Notes under the pieces: model-generated
Told to the model about the DNA's origin: nothing
Seen by the model: only the letters and a program-made list of their open reading frames with translations
Database searches by the model: none
In this document: positions 19,944-28,264 of the stretch, piece by piece
Numbering within the stretch: the stretch's first letter is position 1
How the letters are laid out: each line of letters opens with the position of its first letter
Made by a program: the position numbers and the translations under genes
NCBI RefSeq assembly: GCF_900100765.1
Contig: NZ_FNFO01000006.1
Span: 186,001-250,000 of the forward strand
DNA from: Catalinimonas alkaloidigena
GTDB lineage: Bacteria > Bacteroidota > Bacteroidia > Cytophagales > Flexibacteraceae
Length of the DNA stretch: 64,000 nt
Direction: 5' to 3'

Positions 19944-21538
19944 ATGGACGATTCTTCACTGCAAACCCCTTCTGCCGACGATCTGCTGCTTTTCCTGGAG
20001 CAGCCCGCTTCGTACCCACACGGTCCTGCGGCGGTGGAAGTTCGGCAAACCCACGCGTCCCTTCTGGCGCTGGCCGGCCCCTACGTCTACAAAGTCAAAA
20101 AGGCGGTCGACTTCGGTTTCCTGGACTTCACCACCCTTGCCAAGCGCCGGGAAAATGCCGAACGCGAACGCCGCCTCAACAGCCGCCTGTGCGCCGATCT
20201 GTACCTCGACATCGTGCCGATTTGCCACCGGGCGGGGAAGTTGGCCTTTGGCTCCAAGGGCGAAATCGTGGAGTATGCCTTGAAGATGCACCGCCTCGAC
20301 GACGGTTATTTCCTGGACCAGTTGCTGAAGGAAGGCGCTCCCGACCCTGTCCTGCTTACGCCCGTGCTCGATACGTTGCAGGCGTTCTATACGCAGCCGC
20401 CGCAGCCGCCTGCCCTGGCGGCGTTCGGGGCGTTGTCGCACATCCGTCGTGTAACGGACGATACGCTGCGCGCCCTGGACCTGCCGGAGGCATTGCCGCC
20501 GGTGGTCTATCCGACGCTCCGGCAGTACCACGATGCGTATTACGAACAGCATGCGGCGCTTTTTGCCGAGCGTGTGCAGCAACACCGCATTGTCGACGGG
20601 CATGGCGACCTGCGCCTGGAGCACATTCACCTGCAAGGAGGCCGGGTATGTATTTACGATTGCCTCGAATTCAACGACGCACTACGCTACCTCGACGTTG
20701 CCGCCGACCTGGCTTTTCTGGCCATGGACCTTGATTTTGCAGCCCACCCCGCCCTCGCCCGGTACGTGGTCGATCAGATGGCGCAGCGGTTGCACGACCC
20801 GGCGCTGAAGTCCTTGATGGATTTCTACAAAGTGTACCGCGCCTGTGTGCGGGCCAAGGTGGAACACCTCCGAAGCCAGGAGGCGGAAGTGGGTGAAGCG
20901 GAACGGCAACGGAGTCAGGTGCAACGGCAGCGTTACCTGCAACTGGCGCTGCGCTATGCCACCTGCGGTTCGTCGCCTACGGTGCTGCTGGTCGGTGGCC
21001 CCATCGGAAGCGGAAAAAGTACACTGGCCCGTGCGCTGGCCGATCACCTGGGCCTGACGTACCTCAGTAGCGACATCGTGCGCAAGCAACAGGCCCACCA
21101 GCCGCTGTTCGCGCGCACGCCGGCCTCGCAACGCAAGCTGCTCTACACTCCAGCCCGCACCGCGGCCGTTTACGAGGCGTTGCTGGCGGCGGTAGCGGCG
21201 TTGCAGGCGCAGGAGAAAGGCGCGGTGGTCGACGCCACCTTCGGCAACGCCGCGCACCGCGCCCGGTTTTTCCGGCACTTCCACGCGCACCGGCTTCCGT
21301 TCTTTTTCTGGAAGCGTGGGCTCCCCCCACCCTACTCCGGCACCGGCTGGCCGAACGGGAAGGAGGGCCACGCGTGGTGTCAGATGCCCGCCTGGACGAC
21401 TTCGAGGCGCTCTATGCGCGCTATCAGCCGCCTGCTGAAGTTCCCGGCGTGGTATCCGTTTCGACCGCGCAAACGCCCGACGACGCGCTGCAACAGGCGC
21501 TGGCGCAGTTGGTTTCCCGACAGGTGCGCAGCCGGTAG
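19944..21538 (+). pseudogene. bifunctional APH-like/P-loop kinase protein, frameshifted near 21305
   Basis: Residues about 1-335 form an aminoglycoside-phosphotransferase-like kinase fold (YVYKVKKAVDFGFLDFTTL, VDGHGDLRLEHIHL with the Brenner-type HGDLR motif, IYDCLEFNDALRYLDVAADLAFLAMDL). A P-loop kinase follows (VLLVGGPIGSGKSTLARALADHLG, YLSSDIVRK, GAVVDATFGNAAHRARFF). After FFFW the frame turns into Arg/Trp-rich nonsense and runs to 21566, while the family-like continuation (LEAWAPPTLLRHRLAE ... LDDFEALYARYQPP) is found in the -1 frame and stops at 21538. One missing T in the T5 run at 21303-21307 would restore it. This is either a sequencing indel or a true frameshift that alters the last about 75 residues. 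Intact relatives (COG2187/COG0645 fusions) are of unknown substrate. Confidence 0.82.
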
Positions 21539-21550
21539 CGGCCCGGTCGG

Positions 21551-21997
21551 TCAATGGGTTTCGTAGCGACCTGTCATGCGCAGGACGCGAATCCGAAATA
21601 CGACTTCCTGCCGCCCGTGCAGGTCTTTGCGTGCAGCACCGATCAACGTCCATCCCGGACGACTGTGCCGCCCCGGGGCCAGCGGGGCCAGGCGGGTGTA
21701 GAGCTTTCGAAGGGCCTCTTCGGCCTCTTGTCCTGCCAGTTCTTCGAAGGTTCCCTCCACCAGCACGCTTTGCCACTGCGTCAGGCTCAGGATGCGGTCC
21801 ACCTGAAAACTGACGGCCGGGTTCTGGCGCATCAGGGCTACTTTCTGCCCTTCCCAGCTATGCGCATACAGGCTCTCGCCGTCGTAAACGAACGCAATCG
21901 GCACCACGTACGGGTGGGCGTCGCCCTGGCAAGCCAGTCGCCCCACTTCGGCACCGCGCAGCAGTGTATCCATTTGTTCGGCCAGTAGATGTCCCAT
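21551..21997 (-). CDS. pyridoxamine 5'-phosphate oxidase-like flavin split-barrel protein
   Basis: 148 residues from ATG at 21997 (MGHLLAEQMDTLLRGAEVGRLAC); an ATG 16 codons upstream is possible, but the family normally begins here. Motifs are GRLACQGDAHPYVVPIAFVYDGESLYAHSWEGQKVALMRQNPAVSFQVD, the FMN-binding barrel core, then WQSVLVEGTFEEL. Such small proteins bind flavin (or F420 in actinobacteria) or heme and are usually annotated as general stress or nitroreductase-like. It is convergent with the kinase-like gene, 12 bases apart. Confidence 0.85.
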   Translation of the reverse strand: MGHLLAEQMDTLLRGAEVGRLACQGDAHPYVVPIAFVYDGESLYAHSWEGQKVALMRQNPAVSFQVDRILSLTQWQSVLVEGTFEELAGQEAEEALRKLYTRLAPLAPGRHSRPGWTLIGAARKDLHGRQEVVFRIRVLRMTGRYETH

Positions 21998-22182: not shown

Positions 22183-25100
22183 TTGATTGTCCCGGAAACC
22201 TTGCCGCCTACGACCTTGCTTGCACTCTTCCTGCTTTTCTTTTTCCAAGGGAGCGACCGACCCTTTGCGCCTCCCGATCCACACGCCGCCGATAGCCTGT
22301 ACCAACAGGGGCTCTATCCGCAGGCGGCCGAAGCGTATCAGGCAGTGGCGGAAGCCTGGCAGAAACTGCACCAGGACGACAGCACGCGCTACTACCAACT
22401 GCGGACGGCCCGCGCCTACGTGCAGGATTACGATTTGGACAATTGCGAGCGCTGGGTGCACCGGGCGCTGGAAGATCGGGGCACGGGTGCCCCGCTGTGG
22501 GCCCAAAGCATCGGCTACAACGAACTGGGATACATCCAATTGCTGGGAGGCGAATACGAAGCGGCGCTGGCCCTGTACCAAAAGAGCATTGAGGCCGAAA
22601 CCCGTCGCCCGGCGGCCGATACCCTCAACCTGGCCAAGTCGTACGAATTTCAGGGACTGACGTACATGGCCCTGGGCGACCTGGAACAGGCGCAACGGTG
22701 GGTAGAAGAGGCGCACCACCTGCGGCAACTCATCCTCGATCCCTGGAATAAGGAACTGGGTTACAGCGCCAACGGGCTGTACATGGTCTATTCGCAGGCG
22801 GGGAACCTGCCCCGCGCCGACACCGCCATGGCGCAGGCCTGGCGCATCCTCAACAAGCAGCTGCCGAAAGACCATCCGCACCTGGCTCTTCTGGCGAACA
22901 ACTACAGCACCATCAAGTCGAGTCTGGGTGACATCACGCAGGCGAAAGAGTTGTTGCTCAAGGCCATCACCCTTAATAAAACGTACAGCCGCGAGCGCGC
23001 AACCATCTCGAACTACAATAACCTGGGAGGGCTACACCTGACCCTGCTGGAGCCCGACGCCGCGCTCCGGTATTTTTTTCAGGGGCTGGCCCTCGCCGAT
23101 ACGCTCCTGCCCCATCCGCACCTTAACCGCGTATACCTGCTCGACGGCGTTGGCGCGGCCTATTACTTACTCGACAGTCTGCGCCAGGCCGATTCGGTTT
23201 TCCGGCTCGCTCTGACAGAAAAACGAGCTCTGCTGGAAGAAGATCATCCGGAACTCGCGCAGAGCTGGTACAACCTGGGAACCATCGCCCAGGAACGGAA
23301 CCTCACGGCCGAAGCGCGGCGCGATTTTCAACGGGCGGAAGCGCTGTACAGAGCAAGCTGGGGGCCCGACCACCCCAAGCGGGCCGATGCGCTGTTCGAA
23401 CTGGGCGAACTGGCCTGGGCGGAGCACGACAGCCTTCCGGCGCGGGCACTCTGGCAGGAAGCGCTCCGCCTCTACCGCACTCACCTGGGCTTTTCGCACA
23501 GCTACGTCGCCGAAACGGCCCTGCAACTGGCCGAATCGTATCAATACGCGCGGCAAGACAGCCTCGATTTTTACCTCCGCATGGCCTGGGGGAGCGCCTC
23601 CGGGCAAGACGCGCCGGTGCGGTCGCGTTTGTTGGATAGCCTCACGTTGACGCTGTTGAATCCGCGTACGCTGGATCTGATCAGTTTTGAGCTTGCGCTT
23701 CTGACCCAGGAGGTGGCCCCGACGGAGGCGCCCCGGACCTACACCGCCCAGGAACTGACACGCGGGCATCACCTGATGGACATTGCCGAACGCTGGATTC
23801 CCGCCTTTTTATCGCTTTCCAAGCAGGAGCGCGGCAGCGACGCCACCGCCGAGTTGGTGCAGTCCATCTACACCCGGGGGGCGCTGTTCGCCCATCGGGC
23901 GCTTCAGCAGCATCCCGACGATGTGACGCTTCGGCAGCTTTTGCTGACCTGCATGCAAGCCAGCCGGGGGGCCACCATTCAGGCCGCTTTTCGGCACCGT
24001 CAGGCCATTCAGTTTGCGGGCGTGCCCGATACGTTGGTGGAACACGGACGCCAGCTGATGGAAGCGCTGCGCTATCAGGAAACCAAGTGGCAGAAGAGCG
24101 ATGAAGAAAGCGTTTCTGCCCAGCGAGAGTTGTACCTGGCGGCGCTTCAGGCCTGGCAGGAATACCAGCGGGAGTTGGAGCGGACCTACCCGCGCTACTA
24201 CCAGATGCGTTACGAAACGCCGTCGGTTTCGTGGGAAAAGGTGCAACAGGCACTGGCACCGGACGAATCGATGCTGACCTACCTGAAGCTGGACTCGAAC
24301 CTGCTGGTGGTGCTGGTCGACCGGGAGACGTTTTCGTCCCAACTGCTTGCCCTGCCGACGTCCTGGCCGGACTCCGTGTATCGTTACCGTCAGTTACTGG
24401 CGCAACGGGGCGATCCGGCCGAAGTGGCACGCCTGAGCCATTCGCTTTACACGCAATTGTGGGCCCCCTTTGCCGACCGGCTCAACAAACGCGTGCGGCT
24501 TCTGCCCGACGGACCGCTCTACTACCTCAACTTCGAAACCCTGCTGGAGCAACCGGTAACGGCCCAGTCCACGTCCCGGGCGTGGCCGTACCTGATCCGG
24601 CGCCATGCCATCTACTACGCTTACACCTTGCCAGGCGTCTATCCGACCGCCGAGGCCAGCCCGGGCACCATTCTGGGCATTGCACCCGGGTTTTCGCCCG
24701 AACTGAAAGCCCACTACCGGCAGCAGCTTCCTCCCGAAACGGCCGTCGATTCTGTATTCCTGGGATGGGTGCGTACGCCCTGGTCGGTGCAACTGGTCGA
24801 TCAGCTGGCCCAGCGCGGCTGGGGAACGGCGCTGACCGAAAACAACGCGACCGAGCGCCGCTTCCTGGCGGAGGCCCCCTCGGCGGGCATTTTGCACTTC
24901 GGAACCCATGCACAACTGATCAGCCAGAATCCGCTGGAAAGTTTTCTGGCCCTGACGCCCGAGCCGACCGACAGTGCCGACGGCTACCTGCATACGTACG
25001 AGCTCTACGGACAGCCGTTCCATGCGCAACTAGCGGTGCTGACGGCCTGCCAGACGGGGCTGGGACGCTACCAGGCCGGCGAAGGCGTGCTGTCGCTGGC

Positions 25101-25467
25101 ACATGCGTTTCGGTACGCCGGTTGCCCGAGCGTGATCTACAGCCTGTGGAGCATCGACGACGAACAGACCAACCAACTGACCGAATTCTTCTACGAGGAA
25201 GTGCGGCAGGGGCGCCCCTTCGGCGATGCGTTGCGACAGGCCAAACTGCGCTACCTCGATCAACAGCCCGCCGCCCTGCAACTGCCGTTTTACTGGGCCA
25301 GTCTGGTGCTGGCCGGCGAAAATCAGGCCCTGCCGATGCCTTCGTTCTGGGAAACTTACGGCGGGTGGTTGCTGGGCGGACTTGTTGTGCTGGGACTAAC
25401 AGCCCTTTGGGTGTACCGCAAAAAGAGGGCTTCGGCCACGTCGGCACACCAACTTCAAAAAAACTGA
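22183..25467 (+). CDS. TPR-CHAT protein (caspase-like protease domain), membrane-anchored
   Basis: 1094 residues from a TTG at 22183; no in-frame ATG lies nearby upstream. The N-terminus (TTLLALFLLFFFQGSD) looks like a signal sequence. Residues about 35-460 are tetratricopeptide repeats (YQQGLYPQAAEAYQAVAEAW, YNELGYIQLLGGEYEAALALYQKSI, SWYNLGTIAQERNLTAEARRDFQRAEALY). The C-terminal CHAT domain (about 760-1045) has the His/Cys dyad of clan CD peptidases: HFGTHA with His909 and LTACQTG with Cys956, plus GEGVLSLAHAFRYAGCPSVIYSLWSI. A transmembrane helix at about 1062-1078 is followed by RKKR, so the TPR and CHAT parts should face the periplasm and the tail the cytosol. It heads a cluster with a Gln-rich lipoprotein, an ECF sigma factor and a membrane anti-sigma-like TPR protein. 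The protease substrate is unknown; the anti-sigma protein is the obvious candidate by context. Confidence 0.92.
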   Translation: MIVPETLPPTTLLALFLLFFFQGSDRPFAPPDPHAADSLYQQGLYPQAAEAYQAVAEAWQKLHQDDSTRYYQLRTARAYVQDYDLDNCERWVHRALEDRGTGAPLWAQSIGYNELGYIQLLGGEYEAALALYQKSIEAETRRPAADTLNLAKSYEFQGLTYMALGDLEQAQRWVEEAHHLRQLILDPWNKELGYSANGLYMVYSQAGNLPRADTAMAQAWRILNKQLPKDHPHLALLANNYSTIKSSLGDITQAKELLLKAITLNKTYSRERATISNYNNLGGLHLTLLEPDAALRYFFQGLALADTLLPHPHLNRVYLLDGVGAAYYLLDSLRQADSVFRLALTEKRALLEEDHPELAQSWYNLGTIAQERNLTAEARRDFQRAEALYRASWGPDHPKRADALFELGELAWAEHDSLPARALWQEALRLYRTHLGFSHSYVAETALQLAESYQYARQDSLDFYLRMAWGSASGQDAPVRSRLLDSLTLTLLNPRTLDLISFELALLTQEVAPTEAPRTYTAQELTRGHHLMDIAERWIPAFLSLSKQERGSDATAELVQSIYTRGALFAHRALQQHPDDVTLRQLLLTCMQASRGATIQAAFRHRQAIQFAGVPDTLVEHGRQLMEALRYQETKWQKSDEESVSAQRELYLAALQAWQEYQRELERTYPRYYQMRYETPSVSWEKVQQALAPDESMLTYLKLDSNLLVVLVDRETFSSQLLALPTSWPDSVYRYRQLLAQRGDPAEVARLSHSLYTQLWAPFADRLNKRVRLLPDGPLYYLNFETLLEQPVTAQSTSRAWPYLIRRHAIYYAYTLPGVYPTAEASPGTILGIAPGFSPELKAHYRQQLPPETAVDSVFLGWVRTPWSVQLVDQLAQRGWGTALTENNATERRFLAEAPSAGILHFGTHAQLISQNPLESFLALTPEPTDSADGYLHTYELYGQPFHAQLAVLTACQTGLGRYQAGEGVLSLAHAFRYAGCPSVIYSLWSIDDEQTNQLTEFFYEEVRQGRPFGDALRQAKLRYLDQQPAALQLPFYWASLVLAGENQALPMPSFWETYGGWLLGGLVVLGLTALWVYRKKRASATSAHQLQKN

Positions 25468-25548
25468 AAAAATTTTCCGGTCGGCTGATGACCTTCCCGC
25501 AGGCCCTTCGATTTACGGGCAGAAATCCACTGAAACTCCTTTGTCATC

Positions 25549-26760
25549 ATGAAATACCGCCTCCTCACCGTCGCCCTTCTTTCCAGCGCTCTCCTGTCGC
25601 AAGCCTGCCAGTCGCAAAGCGATTACGCTTCGGACGAAACCGGCTTTGCCGAATCCCCTTACGAAACCGAAATCTCCCCGAACGAACCTTCTAACGAAAA
25701 CGCCATGTATACTTCGACTCCCCAACCCTCTACCCCAACCAACGGCGGCCGCGTCGTGGTGATGGACCGTGGTTTGCAAATGCCCAGCGGCTCGTATGTA
25801 TTGCCCCAGGGCTGGCAACTGGACCAGGACGTAGCGACCAGTCCGCAAACCGGGCAACCGATGCGCTACAAAATGGACTTCTGGGGACCTAAAGGCGAAC
25901 TGGTCCGGAGCCTGGGCCTGGGAAAGTACATGCAGATGATGGGGCAGAACGTAGAGCAGAGCTGGCAGCAGTTGATTCAGCAGAAACTGCAAGGACCCGA
26001 CGTGCAGGTCGTTAGCCTGGGACCCGCCCGGCGCAGTGCCGATCAGCACGTTCCTGATCTGATCCGCAAGACCCTGCAGGGCTACCGCATCGAGATTTAC
26101 GAACGCGATGTGCGGGTCAACCTCAAAGGCAATACCTCCGATGGCCTGATCAAGATGATTCATGCGGCCACTTCGCCCGAATTCGGCATCTTCTTCAGCA
26201 CGGCGTTTCTGGCACCGCAGGGCCGCCTGCAGGAAGCGCTCTCGCTCGAAAAAGCACTGGAGCAGTCGTACCAGCCGAACCCACAGTACCAGCAGGTGAT
26301 GGCGCAAATCAACCAGCGCGTGATGCAGCAGAACAACGCCAGCCATCAACAATGGATGCAACAGAGCCAGGCGGCCCACCAGCAGCGGATGGCCATGCGT
26401 CAGCAGGCATTTGATGCACACCAACAGCGCATGGCCTCGCAGCAGCAGACGTTCGATCAGCAGAACCAACAGTGGATGAACAACTTCCGTAACAGCGGCA
26501 CCTCGGCCTACGGCACCACGTCCGGCAGCTACGACAACTATACCTCGAACGACTACTTCAACGACGCCATGCGCGAAACCACGTCGTTCAACGACCCGTC
26601 CAGCGGCTACCGGGTGCAACAGGACGGCCAGTACGATTACTGGTATACCAATGGCCAGGGCGACTACTACGGCACCAACGACGTCAACTTTAACCCCAGC
26701 ACGCTCCAGGGCGACTGGCAACAGGCACAGCCCCTGACACCCGGCAGCGACGGGTATTAA
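25549..26760 (+). CDS. Gln/Met-rich lipoprotein of unknown function
   Basis: 403 residues. The signal ends in lipobox LLSQAC (Cys20) and a Ser/Glu/Pro-rich linker follows (QSQSDYASDETGFAES). Residues about 60-250 look folded (GSYVLPQGWQLDQDVATSPQTG, VVSLGPARRSADQHVPDLIRKTLQ). Residues about 250-310 are a Gln-rich helix with repeated HQQ[RW]M units (SHQQWMQQ, AHQQRMAM, AHQQRMAS), probably coiled coil, followed by a Tyr/Asn/Gly/Asp-rich C-terminal region (YGTTSGSYDNY, DYYGTNDVNF). I recognise no named family. It lies 81 bases after the CHAT gene and 72 before the sigma gene, with a hairpin between it and the latter, so it belongs to the cluster. Export to the same compartment as the CHAT domain makes it a possible substrate or sensor partner. 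Confidence 0.85.
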   Translation: MKYRLLTVALLSSALLSQACQSQSDYASDETGFAESPYETEISPNEPSNENAMYTSTPQPSTPTNGGRVVVMDRGLQMPSGSYVLPQGWQLDQDVATSPQTGQPMRYKMDFWGPKGELVRSLGLGKYMQMMGQNVEQSWQQLIQQKLQGPDVQVVSLGPARRSADQHVPDLIRKTLQGYRIEIYERDVRVNLKGNTSDGLIKMIHAATSPEFGIFFSTAFLAPQGRLQEALSLEKALEQSYQPNPQYQQVMAQINQRVMQQNNASHQQWMQQSQAAHQQRMAMRQQAFDAHQQRMASQQQTFDQQNQQWMNNFRNSGTSAYGTTSGSYDNYTSNDYFNDAMRETTSFNDPSSGYRVQQDGQYDYWYTNGQGDYYGTNDVNFNPSTLQGDWQQAQPLTPGSDGY

Positions 26761-26779
26761 TTCATCTTCCGACAGGCCT

Positions 26780-26811
26780 ACTCGCCGGTTCGTACACGCA
26801 GACCGGCGAGT
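26780..26811 (+). terminator. stem-loop between the lipoprotein and the sigma gene
   Basis: A perfect 10-base-pair GC-rich stem pairs 26780-26789 with 26802-26811 around a 12-base loop, followed by TTACTTCC. The T-tract is short, so it may be a partial terminator that sets a lower level for the downstream sigma and anti-sigma genes. Confidence 0.55.
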
Positions 26812-26832
26812 TTACTTCCTACCTTCTTCCTT

Positions 26833-27414
26833 ATGTTGCGACCCCTCATCTCTCGTAGATCTTCCACCAGCGATGCCGAACTGTACGCCGGACTGCTCCG
26901 CAACGACCCGGCCAGCTTTGAATACCTCTACCAGCGGCTGTTCCCCATGGTGCGACAGCACCTCACCAGCCACGGCAGTACCGATGAAGATGCGCAGGAT
27001 ATCTTTCAGGAAGGGGTGATCGCCCTCTGGCAAAATGCCCGCTCGGGAAGTTTTCAGTTACGCGATGGCGTAAAGCTCAGCACTTACCTGACCCAAATCT
27101 GCAAATTCCGCTGGATGGACAAGCAACGCAAAGCCGGTTACCGCCGCGAAAAGCACCAGGAAGATATTCCGGACACGCGCCAGGACGCCGATCCGCTGGC
27201 CCAATGGCTGGACCGCGAAGAGCAGCAGACCTTCCAAACCGTGTTCGCGCAACTCGACGAACGCTGCCAGGAGATGCTGCAACGGTTCTACTTCCAGAAA
27301 GAATCGATGCTCGAGATCGCCCAGGCGTACTCCATCGGCGAGGCTTCCGCCAAAAACCAGAAATACCGCTGTATGCAACGCCTACGGCAACTTTTTCAAC
27401 AGGCTCAATCTTAG
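26833..27414 (+). CDS. ECF RNA polymerase sigma factor of the CHAT cluster
   Basis: 193 residues. Sigma2 is at about 15-85 (DAELYAGLLRNDPASFEYLYQRLFPMVRQHL, DAQDIFQEGVIALW, STYLTQICKFRWMDKQRK) and sigma4 at about 130-185 (FAQLDERCQEMLQRFYFQKESMLEIAQAYSIGEASAKNQKYRCMQRLRQLF). The helix-turn-helix with 'SAKNQKYRCMQRL' is typical of a Bacteroidota ECF group whose partner is a TPR-type membrane protein. That partner starts 5 bases after the stop. Which genes it controls is not shown; autoregulation of the cluster is the default guess. Confidence 0.93.
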   Translation: MLRPLISRRSSTSDAELYAGLLRNDPASFEYLYQRLFPMVRQHLTSHGSTDEDAQDIFQEGVIALWQNARSGSFQLRDGVKLSTYLTQICKFRWMDKQRKAGYRREKHQEDIPDTRQDADPLAQWLDREEQQTFQTVFAQLDERCQEMLQRFYFQKESMLEIAQAYSIGEASAKNQKYRCMQRLRQLFQQAQS

Positions 27415-27419
27415 AACTT

Positions 27420-28163
27420 ATGGACCCTTTCTTGTTTGAACGCATAGATGCCTACCTCCTCGAAACCATGTCGCCGGAAGAGCGCCAACGTTTTGAAGAC
27501 GAGGTCCGGACCCAGCCCGAACTGGCCGAAGAAGTGGCGCTTCAGCGCAAGCTGATCCAGGGCATCGAAACTGAATCGGTGCGCCGCCTGCTGCAGGAAT
27601 TGCACACCCGCCAGACGGCCGCGCCCGTCATGAAGGCCAGCCCGGCCCGCCGCACGTGGCTCACCCTGACGGCCATTGCCGCCTCGGTGCTGTTGATTTT
27701 AATCGGACGCTGGGCTTTTGTGCAATACGCGTCGCCGTCGTCGGCCGACTTGTATGCCGCCTATTACAGCCCCGCTCCCGGCCTGCCCACCACCCTGGGC
27801 GCAACCGACAACCCCGATTTTTCGGAAGGTATGGTGGCGTATAAACTGGGCAACTACCAGGAAGCGCGCCAGTGGTGGCTGCCGCTCACGCAGCAAGACG
27901 CTGCCAACGACACGCTGAATTTTTACCTCGGTGTGTCGTACCTCGCCACAACACAGACCGACTCGGCCCTGTATTACCTACGCCGGGTCTACGACGCGCC
28001 CAAAACCTCGTACGGGTCCTCGGCGCGGTGGTACATGGCCCTAGGATATTTGCAGACGAGCGAACCAGAACGGGCGCGCGAATTGTTACAAAACTTTCGG
28101 GAGGACGATCCCCGACGCGAGGAAATCGTCAAACTCTTGAACGAGCTTCCGAAAAGCCAGTAA
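27420..28163 (+). CDS. membrane anti-sigma-like protein with periplasmic TPR domain
   Basis: 247 residues from ATG at 27420. The cytoplasmic N-terminus (FERIDAYLLETMSPEERQRFEDEVRTQPELAEEV) has the pattern of zinc-free anti-sigma N-termini found in Bacteroidota. One transmembrane helix lies at about 80-102 (TWLTLTAIAASVLLILIGRW). The periplasmic part has about three TPR-like helical pairs at 133-240 (DFSEGMVAYKLGNYQEARQWW, LNFYLGVSYLATTQTDSALYYL, ARWYMALGYLQTSEPERARELL). It is 5 bases from the sigma gene and is ended by a strong terminator. It probably holds the sigma factor at the membrane. The periplasmic TPR part would be on the same side as the CHAT protease domain of 22183-25467. Confidence 0.88.
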   Translation: MDPFLFERIDAYLLETMSPEERQRFEDEVRTQPELAEEVALQRKLIQGIETESVRRLLQELHTRQTAAPVMKASPARRTWLTLTAIAASVLLILIGRWAFVQYASPSSADLYAAYYSPAPGLPTTLGATDNPDFSEGMVAYKLGNYQEARQWWLPLTQQDAANDTLNFYLGVSYLATTQTDSALYYLRRVYDAPKTSYGSSARWYMALGYLQTSEPERARELLQNFREDDPRREEIVKLLNELPKSQ

Positions 28164-28227: not shown

Positions 28228-28264
28228 CGCCTGACCGGAGCCATTCGGTCAGGCGCTTTTTTTT
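28228..28264 (+). terminator. intrinsic terminator after the CHAT/sigma cluster
   Basis: A perfect 10-base-pair stem pairs 28228-28237 with 28246-28255 around an 8-base loop, followed by C and eight T residues. It closes the plus-strand cluster and overlaps the stop region of the convergent hydrolase gene. Confidence 0.92.

Follow-up and report, generated by a model that had tools for sequence, protein, structure and literature searches.

A periplasmic signal releases the extracytoplasmic function (ECF) sigma factor from its one-helix anti-sigma factor in the DegS/RseP-RseA-RpoE system, alongside which PorXY-SigP of Porphyromonas may be placed as a case of regulated proteolysis. Here, we consider a locus of Catalinimonas alkaloidigena where a caspase-like protein stands in place of the PDZ serine protease, with cutting as the presumed step. 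The locus lies in a stretch of 64,000 nucleotides (NZ_FNFO01000006.1, positions 186,001 to 250,000), hereafter the window, whose own numbering is used, and comprises genes for a protein combining tetratricopeptide repeats (TPR) with a CHAT protease domain, a lipoprotein, an ECF sigma factor and an anti-sigma-like membrane protein. As a cell-envelope signalling unit of Bacteroidota this module is almost certainly real. Three families, TPR-CHAT, ECF sigma and one-helix TPR anti-sigma-like, recur together, the lipoprotein being the fourth in a part of the loci, and four computational findings may be regarded as solid: the gene set, how it is conserved, the topology predicted for its products and the promoter motif.

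Two described systems come closest. The type III-E locus of CRISPR (clustered regularly interspaced short palindromic repeats) unites the CHAT protease Csx29, the sigma inhibitor Csx30 and the ECF-like CASP-sigma, as given in the accessible part of the source (PMC10028731). The window differs from that system, known as Craspase, in the predicted export of its TPR-CHAT protein, in having a membrane protein with one helix and TPRs as the putative inhibitor, and in its sigma factor, which scores 31.2 bits against the type III-E CASP sigma model NF041236, below that model's cut-off of 100. Neither a cas gene nor gRAMP (Cas7-11) was found by Pfam scan in the operon and one flanking gene on each side. 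The earlier note, made from the letters of this DNA, had called the unit CRISPR-free, which holds for the genes scanned, but a Cas1 fragment at the end of another contig (G000:C15:57-488) means that the genome of the window is not free of CRISPR genes.

The second system is DdvA of Myxococcus xanthus (PDB 8rot, 8rw5), titled a transmembrane anti-sigma factor, with the ECF sigma factor DdvS as a partner; as is supposed for the window, a TPR-CHAT body goes together with an ECF sigma inhibitor seated in the membrane. According to the available portion of a review, an antiphage island is under the control of DdvS, which, according to that of an earlier paper, turns active once DdvA is inactivated, by a signal given as unknown. 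While anti-sigma and TPR-CHAT parts share one chain in DdvA, they are two separate open reading frames (ORFs) in the window, split also in the linked loci displayed; the TPR-CHAT protein of the window has its own signal-like start and a C-terminal anchor, and the promoter motif described below precedes genes of exported proteins, unlike the DdvA/DdvS system. That the same parts form a single chain in one lineage but are encoded by two adjacent genes in another may be considered a classic sign of joint function.

Likeness of another kind is offered by ECF54, where CHAT and subtilase genes adjoin the ECF sigma factor and, with Geodermatophilus as the named example, proteolytic control in the lack of an anti-sigma factor was proposed, in the part of the paper at hand (PMC8999054). 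The present locus differs by having an anti-sigma-like gene and by its phylum, Bacteroidota, and the resemblance is one of neighbourhood. In Bacteroides fragilis, CHAT proteins near effectors of the type VI secretion system, one of them seemingly transmembrane, were called probable immunity proteins in a text whose accessible part does not mention sigma (PMC11854122). The open-licence literature searched yielded neither a published description of the gene set nor a tested function for Bacteroidota TPR-CHAT proteins; the earlier note's broader statement that no function had been described misses DdvA and the CHAT and subtilase genes beside ECF54. On the features tested, the module is neither the Csx29 system nor identical with DdvA; Bacteroidota have their own, separate version of that idea.

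The AlphaFold model of the TPR-CHAT protein (predicted local distance difference test, pLDDT, 87.8) shares the TPR-CHAT fold with Csx29 (7y9x_B; Z 27.8, root mean square deviation (rmsd) 6.0, 602 residues aligned, 11% identity) and aligns with DdvA (Z 21.7, rmsd 6.6, 554 aligned, 16% identity) and with separase ctSPD (5fby_A; Z 26.9, rmsd 2.9, 307 aligned, 14% identity), separase being eukaryotic, intracellular and without a sigma factor; Csx29 and separase are its closest folds of known structure. A profile of eight C-terminal CHAT regions (A6) ranked DdvA first (8rot_B, E 7.6e-10) and Csx29 next (1.3e-5), His and Cys being aligned in both; another profile, A2, put Csx29 first (0.0045 vs 0.016 for DdvA), and searches with whole CHAT alignments matched mostly TPR proteins.

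Genes and predicted products of the locus

The features of the locus, all of them on the + strand, are as follows.

22183..25467, + strand: TPR-CHAT protein gene, product predicted exported, 1094 amino acids (ORF scan and Pfam; TTG start, exact start unsure)
24433..25320, + strand: CHAT domain, residues 751-1046 (PF12770, E 3.6e-47, 161.6 bits against a cut-off of 24)
24907..24909, + strand: codon of His909, catalytic dyad by alignment (invariant in 25-row and 66-row alignments)
25048..25050, + strand: codon of Cys956, catalytic dyad by alignment (invariant in the same two alignments)
25357..25413, + strand: C-terminal membrane anchor of the TPR-CHAT protein, basic tail after it (hydrophobicity scans)
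25487..25515, + strand: predicted ECF promoter GATGAC-N16-CGATTTA, 62 bp before the lipoprotein ATG (top match of the matrix)
25549..26760, + strand: lipoprotein gene (family of 42 matching ORFs; structure model; fold matches)
26833..27414, + strand: ECF sigma factor gene, 193 amino acids (TIGR02937, Sigma70_r2)
27420..28163, + strand: anti-sigma-like protein gene, 247 amino acids (NCBIfam anti-sigma model, below cut-off; TPR; transmembrane helix)
27666..27722, + strand: transmembrane helix of the anti-sigma-like protein, residues 83-101 (hydrophobicity scans)
27750..27800, + strand: juxtamembrane motif of the anti-sigma-like protein, residues 111-127, predicted periplasmic (conservation over 30 rows)
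28228..28255, + strand: intrinsic terminator stem (12 pairs, 8 G-C, T run after)

Four same-strand genes closed by a strong terminator, with an intact His909/Cys956 dyad in the first product and an ECF sigma factor as the third, had been put forward in the earlier note, and all these assignments were confirmed; ATG 27420 is the start of the anti-sigma-like gene, position 27204 being merely the start of a longer mechanical ORF. Since a promoter is predicted between the CHAT and lipoprotein genes, a single transcript for all four genes is only putative. The sigma factor reaches 78.1 bits with TIGR02937 (cut-off 42.9) and 38.2 with Sigma70_r2 (cut-off 24), Sigma70_r4 being just under its threshold (23.6 vs 24.1).

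Besides the CHAT domain, the Pfam scan detected TPRs in the TPR-CHAT protein. Its His909 and Cys956 are unchanged across 25 linked relatives and across a second alignment of 66 rows, made of the window and 65 of 68 candidates, where an N-terminal hydrophobic stretch is present in 63 rows, a C-terminal one in 62 and both in 59, and where the C-terminal flank is the more positive side of the C-terminal transmembrane segment in 62/62. On account of these three traits the TPR and CHAT parts are predicted to reside outside the cytoplasm, on the same side as the TPR of the anti-sigma-like protein, and a cytoplasmic CHAT domain is not favoured. In the window no basic residue stands ahead of the signal-like stretch, unlike in the homologues of loci L151 and L153, and together with the TTG codon this leaves the exact start unsure.

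The anti-sigma-like protein is laid out as a predicted cytoplasmic N-domain, one transmembrane helix and periplasmic TPRs; a single helix is found in 30/30 rows of the family, with the N side more positive in 24 of them, so that the common periplasmic placement of CHAT and anti-sigma TPR claimed from the letters agrees with the topology predicted here. NF052375 matches the N-domain with E 5e-9 over residues 10-120, at 36.4 bits vs a cut-off of 100, and matches 12 of the 30 members of the family.

The lipobox LSQAC of the Gln-rich lipoprotein is loose, yet across 35 rows conservation of its Cys is 90% or more. An iterated profile matched 42 ORFs of this family, the window copy included and two contigs counted twice; since the profile was run only on ORFs of already fetched loci, its matches alone do not prove that the family adjoins CHAT genes. 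The structure model (mean pLDDT 81.6) consists of a PsbP/Mog1-like domain at about 66-245, a 71-residue helix (245-315) and a small C-terminal beta domain. Foldseek retrieved 9grx chain 0 (E 6.0e-5) as the best match of the N-terminal domain and CyanoP 2lnj at 2.9e-4, and VIA-align 2 gave Z 7.1 at most (rmsd 4.5, 128 aligned). The domain appears to resemble PsbP, Mog1 and DcrB, possibly with a common arrangement, its fold name being tentative because Z stays under 8; RseB and MucA/MucB rows are weak (Z 3.5 to 4.0). In a second protein of the same genome (G000:C1:820120-820614) the match covers just the later portion of the lipoprotein model (E 8e-12), as it does for weak matches in other genomes, and the C-terminal part seems more widely used.

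PADLOC gave no defence-family match for the CHAT and sigma proteins and weak matches only for the lipoprotein and the anti-sigma-like protein. Upstream of the locus, the window ORF 19944-21566 overlaps the next gene on the opposite strand and has an arginine-rich tail that by eye appears out of frame, suggesting a frameshift or assembly error.

Conservation of the gene neighbourhood

CHAT relatives were collected from three sources (order, phylum and a named genome collection), and profiles derived from the order loci served to score the genes around them; a CHAT match was present in 73 of 98 genomes searched, the window's own included. The order set holds 60 loci picked from the upper part of the match list, and the phylum set 19 CHAT loci picked from the phylum list, a twentieth region fetched for its lipoprotein (L232) being left out. 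The named set consists of 80 loci chosen by similarity to seven CHAT rows, all from linked loci, and therefore shows conservation within the clade and gives no rate for all CHAT genes. Some contigs occur twice across the sets (L091/L154, L092/L155, L093/L163), and each set was counted by itself; L154 and L163, titled Thalassobius and Thalassovita, were taken as mislabelled bins with the same layout as L091 and L093 (G154, G203), and G154 and G203 were grouped with the order of the window.

Recurrence of the gene set in Bacteroidota, which had been suggested as a possibility, was observed in all three sets: at a distance of no more than four ORFs, the CHAT gene has a sigma or anti-sigma gene in 65/80 named loci, 22/60 order loci and 16/19 phylum loci, and both genes in 54, 20 and 7, respectively, with varied arrangements in the phylum set. 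Among the 15 named loci with neither gene in that range, 10 are near a contig edge. Marine carriers of the set include Cellulophaga tyrosinoxydans and Maribacter (L193 and L198). Positions are nearly fixed, sigma at -2 in 53 of 70 named loci and anti-sigma at -1 in 56 of 73 where the gene is present, and any other single offset is found at most twice; this offset control was used as background in place of a genome-wide one. The arrangement seen most often among the 80 loci has the CHAT gene last, after the sigma, anti-sigma and, if there is one, lipoprotein genes, and in several loci the CHAT and sigma/anti-sigma genes are on opposite strands. A lipoprotein gene is found within four ORFs of the CHAT gene in 26/80 named loci, and in L151 and L153 there are two tandem copies in the gene order of the window.

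The window is placed by a 98-row FastTree tree in a clade of 27 rows (support 99), of which 23 are linked, 3 unlinked and 1 at an edge, and linkage is clustered, with 16 changes vs 32.4 in shuffles (0/500 as low); unlinked TPR-CHAT clades are present as well. Only 15 of the 80 named loci are in this tree, where near-copies and long branches make it a rough guide and the window sigma, overlapping the longer anti-sigma ORF, was assigned by hand. The view that TPR-CHAT and ECF genes, both common in the phylum, are chance neighbours draws on the abundance of CHAT genes noted above and has next to no likelihood left, given fixed offsets that already make chance unlikely, clade-wise conservation and several arrangements.

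Some clusters have additional members. Two CHAT genes, tandem or close and perhaps with divided roles, occur in L189, L212 and L214, and a subtilase-like gene (460-570 amino acids; family code f10) lies between the anti-sigma and CHAT genes in L126, L129, L138, L139, L140 and L144, which recalls the ECF54 neighbourhoods. Two of these six were identified by Pfam and four by catalytic motifs; several copies have by eye no clear signal peptide, and that of L139 starts like a lipoprotein.

Promoter motif and candidate regulon

When 91 upstream regions, those of the window CHAT gene and of the named set's lipoprotein and sigma genes, were searched for gapped 4+4 words, TGAC/CGAT turned up at a single spacing in 21 of them vs a mean of none in five block shuffles, related sequences being counted repeatedly. 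The full motif reads TGATGAC(A/C)TTTT followed by CGATNTA, and 15 or 16 bases separate GATGAC from CGAT, a spacing that suits an ECF promoter. Within 150 bases upstream, and with duplicate contigs left out of these counts and of the list of motif-bearing genes, it precedes 24/42 lipoprotein genes (window included), 6/119 sigma, 0/116 anti-sigma and 0/159 CHAT genes and 43/1550 other ORFs, the reversed motif giving 0 in every gene class; the half motif GATGAC.TT precedes 27/42 lipoprotein genes. A matrix was also derived from 23 relatives without the window; over both strands of all 64 kb, its top match was the site at 25487 (13.8 vs 11.2 for the next). In one phylum genome, G507, the lipoprotein gene is about 2.2 Mb from the CHAT cluster yet still bears the motif. 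Judging by the company it keeps, the motif is probably the promoter of the module's sigma factor.

The other motif-bearing ORFs of at least 100 amino acids (n=44) have by eye signal or lipoprotein starts; only the Era-like gene of L198 clearly departs from this. For Pfam, 18 proteins were selected, of which 14 are motif-bearing (12 from relatives and 2 from the genome of the window) and four are not, namely two subtilases (L126, L140) and two sister copies (L097:10565, L098:10398). Among the 14, five have a sorting tail of the type IX secretion system (T9SS) above the cut-off and a sixth has one narrowly below it; there are also two subtilases, a beta-lactamase-fold hydrolase, a YadA-head protein and two endosialidase-chaperone proteins, and four had no match. 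The window's own genome has 5 exact sites, of which chance could yield one or two by our own estimate, vs 0 for the reversed control, and shorter-spacer versions gave no site in it. Of the four besides the window site, one is ahead of an M23 peptidase that carries a T9SS tail; another lies upstream, by about 115 bp, of an exported protein (about 470 amino acids) in which no domain passes its cut-off; a third precedes a short stretch that is signal-like by eye, and the fourth is inside a gene. The conserved promoter suggests a switch controlling surface and secreted proteins.

Large lipoproteins of about 810-880 amino acids adjoin the CHAT cluster in L041, L097, L098, L099, L105, L198 and L202, paired in L097, L098 and L099; four have the GATGAC promoter, and the two tested gave no Pfam match.

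How the TPR-CHAT protein may reach the sigma factor

The favoured explanation, to which we assign as a whole a probability of about 0.5, is CHAT-triggered release of the sigma factor followed by expression of surface and secreted genes. The anti-sigma-like protein, which its adjacency suggests to restrain the ECF sigma factor, would keep it at the membrane as long as there is no signal. An envelope signal, perhaps sensed by the lipoprotein, would cause the TPR-CHAT protein to dock on the anti-sigma protein, whose conserved juxtamembrane segment it would then act on, cleavage being the likeliest way; further proteolysis would then free the sigma factor, which would switch on the lipoprotein and surface or secreted proteins. 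Control of the sigma factor by the TPR-CHAT protein is likely, and the tie between them supposed in the earlier note gains from the conserved promoter and the DdvA precedent, proteolysis itself being still presumed; that the anti-sigma protein is what becomes cut is the leading guess, at about even odds.

The segment in question reads PDPGLPTTM in relatives and PAPGLPTTL in the window. In the window's clade it is the most conserved stretch of the anti-sigma-like protein: over 30 rows the mean fraction of the majority residue is 0.69 at residues 111-127, whereas the N-domain reaches 0.44 and the TPR 0.48, and DPGL/M/V is present in 53/57 anti-sigma proteins of the named set. A docking or cut site would be expected to show such conservation next to the membrane. 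For the motif counts, linked and unlinked proteins were split by five genes on each side, with distinct sequences and a transmembrane score of at least 1.3, L097 being wrongly counted as unlinked. The likening of the conserved Met of PDPGLPTTM to M427 of Csx30 was dropped: in the accessible part of the report, cleavage was blocked by deletion of M427 but by none of the single alanine substitutions, the length of the loop apparently playing a part (PMC10028731). A yet more specific version, which we hold only tentatively, would have the TPR-CHAT protein as a site-1 protease cutting at PDPGLPTTM and the freed sigma factor acting on a surface/T9SS regulon via GATGAC-N15/16-CGAT, and jointly with this would see the caspase-driven envelope pathway as the source of, or a parallel to, the CRISPR Csx29-sigma and DdvA systems.

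Several observations weigh against the favoured explanation. The N-domain reaches no curated anti-sigma cut-off, and the TPR stretch 161-175 is nearly as conserved as the juxtamembrane motif (0.71 vs 0.73 in 12-residue windows). DPGL/M/V is found in just 5/21 order-set and 2/13 phylum-set anti-sigma proteins, and three anti-sigma proteins of one genus (code g17; L046, L047, L054) have PDPGLP without a nearby CHAT gene, the three genomes having 0, 0 and 1 CHAT matches. Because of this scarcity in the two sets and these unlinked copies, the motif is confined to one clade and is no general sign of CHAT docking. In the order set, neither a sigma nor an anti-sigma gene is found within four ORFs of 38/60 TPR-CHAT genes; 8 of these 38 are close to a contig edge. 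No lipoprotein gene is present within four ORFs in 54/80 named loci, and near-complete matches to the family occur in only 2/296 phylum genomes (G000, the window's own, and G507), with partial ones in five others, for which reason the lipoprotein-bearing version of the gene set is a minority form; the whole promoter motif is absent within 150 bases upstream of 18/42 lipoprotein genes. As a mark of all CHAT-linked anti-sigma proteins PDPGL was rejected, for it marks one clade, and in genus g17 it may serve another partner.

RseB, which protects RseA, provides a parallel for a TPR-CHAT protein acting as a sensor or scaffold and not as a cutter, binding the periplasmic TPR of the anti-sigma protein and either protecting it or relaying a shape change. 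Both proteins have TPRs, which are protein-binding repeats, and DdvA, the nearest solved relative in one of the two profile searches, has TPR-CHAT within the anti-sigma factor itself. A pure scaffold would not need His909 and Cys956, invariant in both alignments, but DdvA keeps both aligned residues too, so that conservation of the dyad alone does not decide between scaffold and protease; on balance we consider such a role unlikely, at a chance of between one in four and one in five.

Somewhat less credible is the TPR-CHAT protein as an output, that is, an exported protease made together with its regulators and processing surface or secreted proteins. It would fit the commonest order, where the CHAT gene is last and thus downstream of the promoter, and the motif-bearing genes for exported proteins, several with T9SS tails. 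However, the CHAT gene of the window precedes the promoter, that of L151 and L153 precedes the lipoprotein genes (three of the four with the GATGAC half only and one with neither half), and the opposite strands of CHAT and sigma/anti-sigma genes in several loci suit a regulator better than a target.

Improbable, finally, is action on the lipoprotein, which would itself restrain the anti-sigma protein or the TPR-CHAT protein. Its domain of envelope-lipoprotein likeness, the long exposed helix of the model and the proximity to CHAT genes in 26/80 loci speak for it, but given the 54 loci with no such gene nearby, the lipoprotein can be no general substrate unless encoded elsewhere, as in G507.

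A fixed gene set, predicted export, a predicted promoter and candidate targets turn the abundant TPR-CHAT proteins into a testable pathway and give the Csx29-sigma logic a plausible home outside CRISPR. Should the dyad control the sigma factor, caspase-like proteolysis would belong to ordinary bacterial signalling across the membrane and would not be a tool of defence alone.

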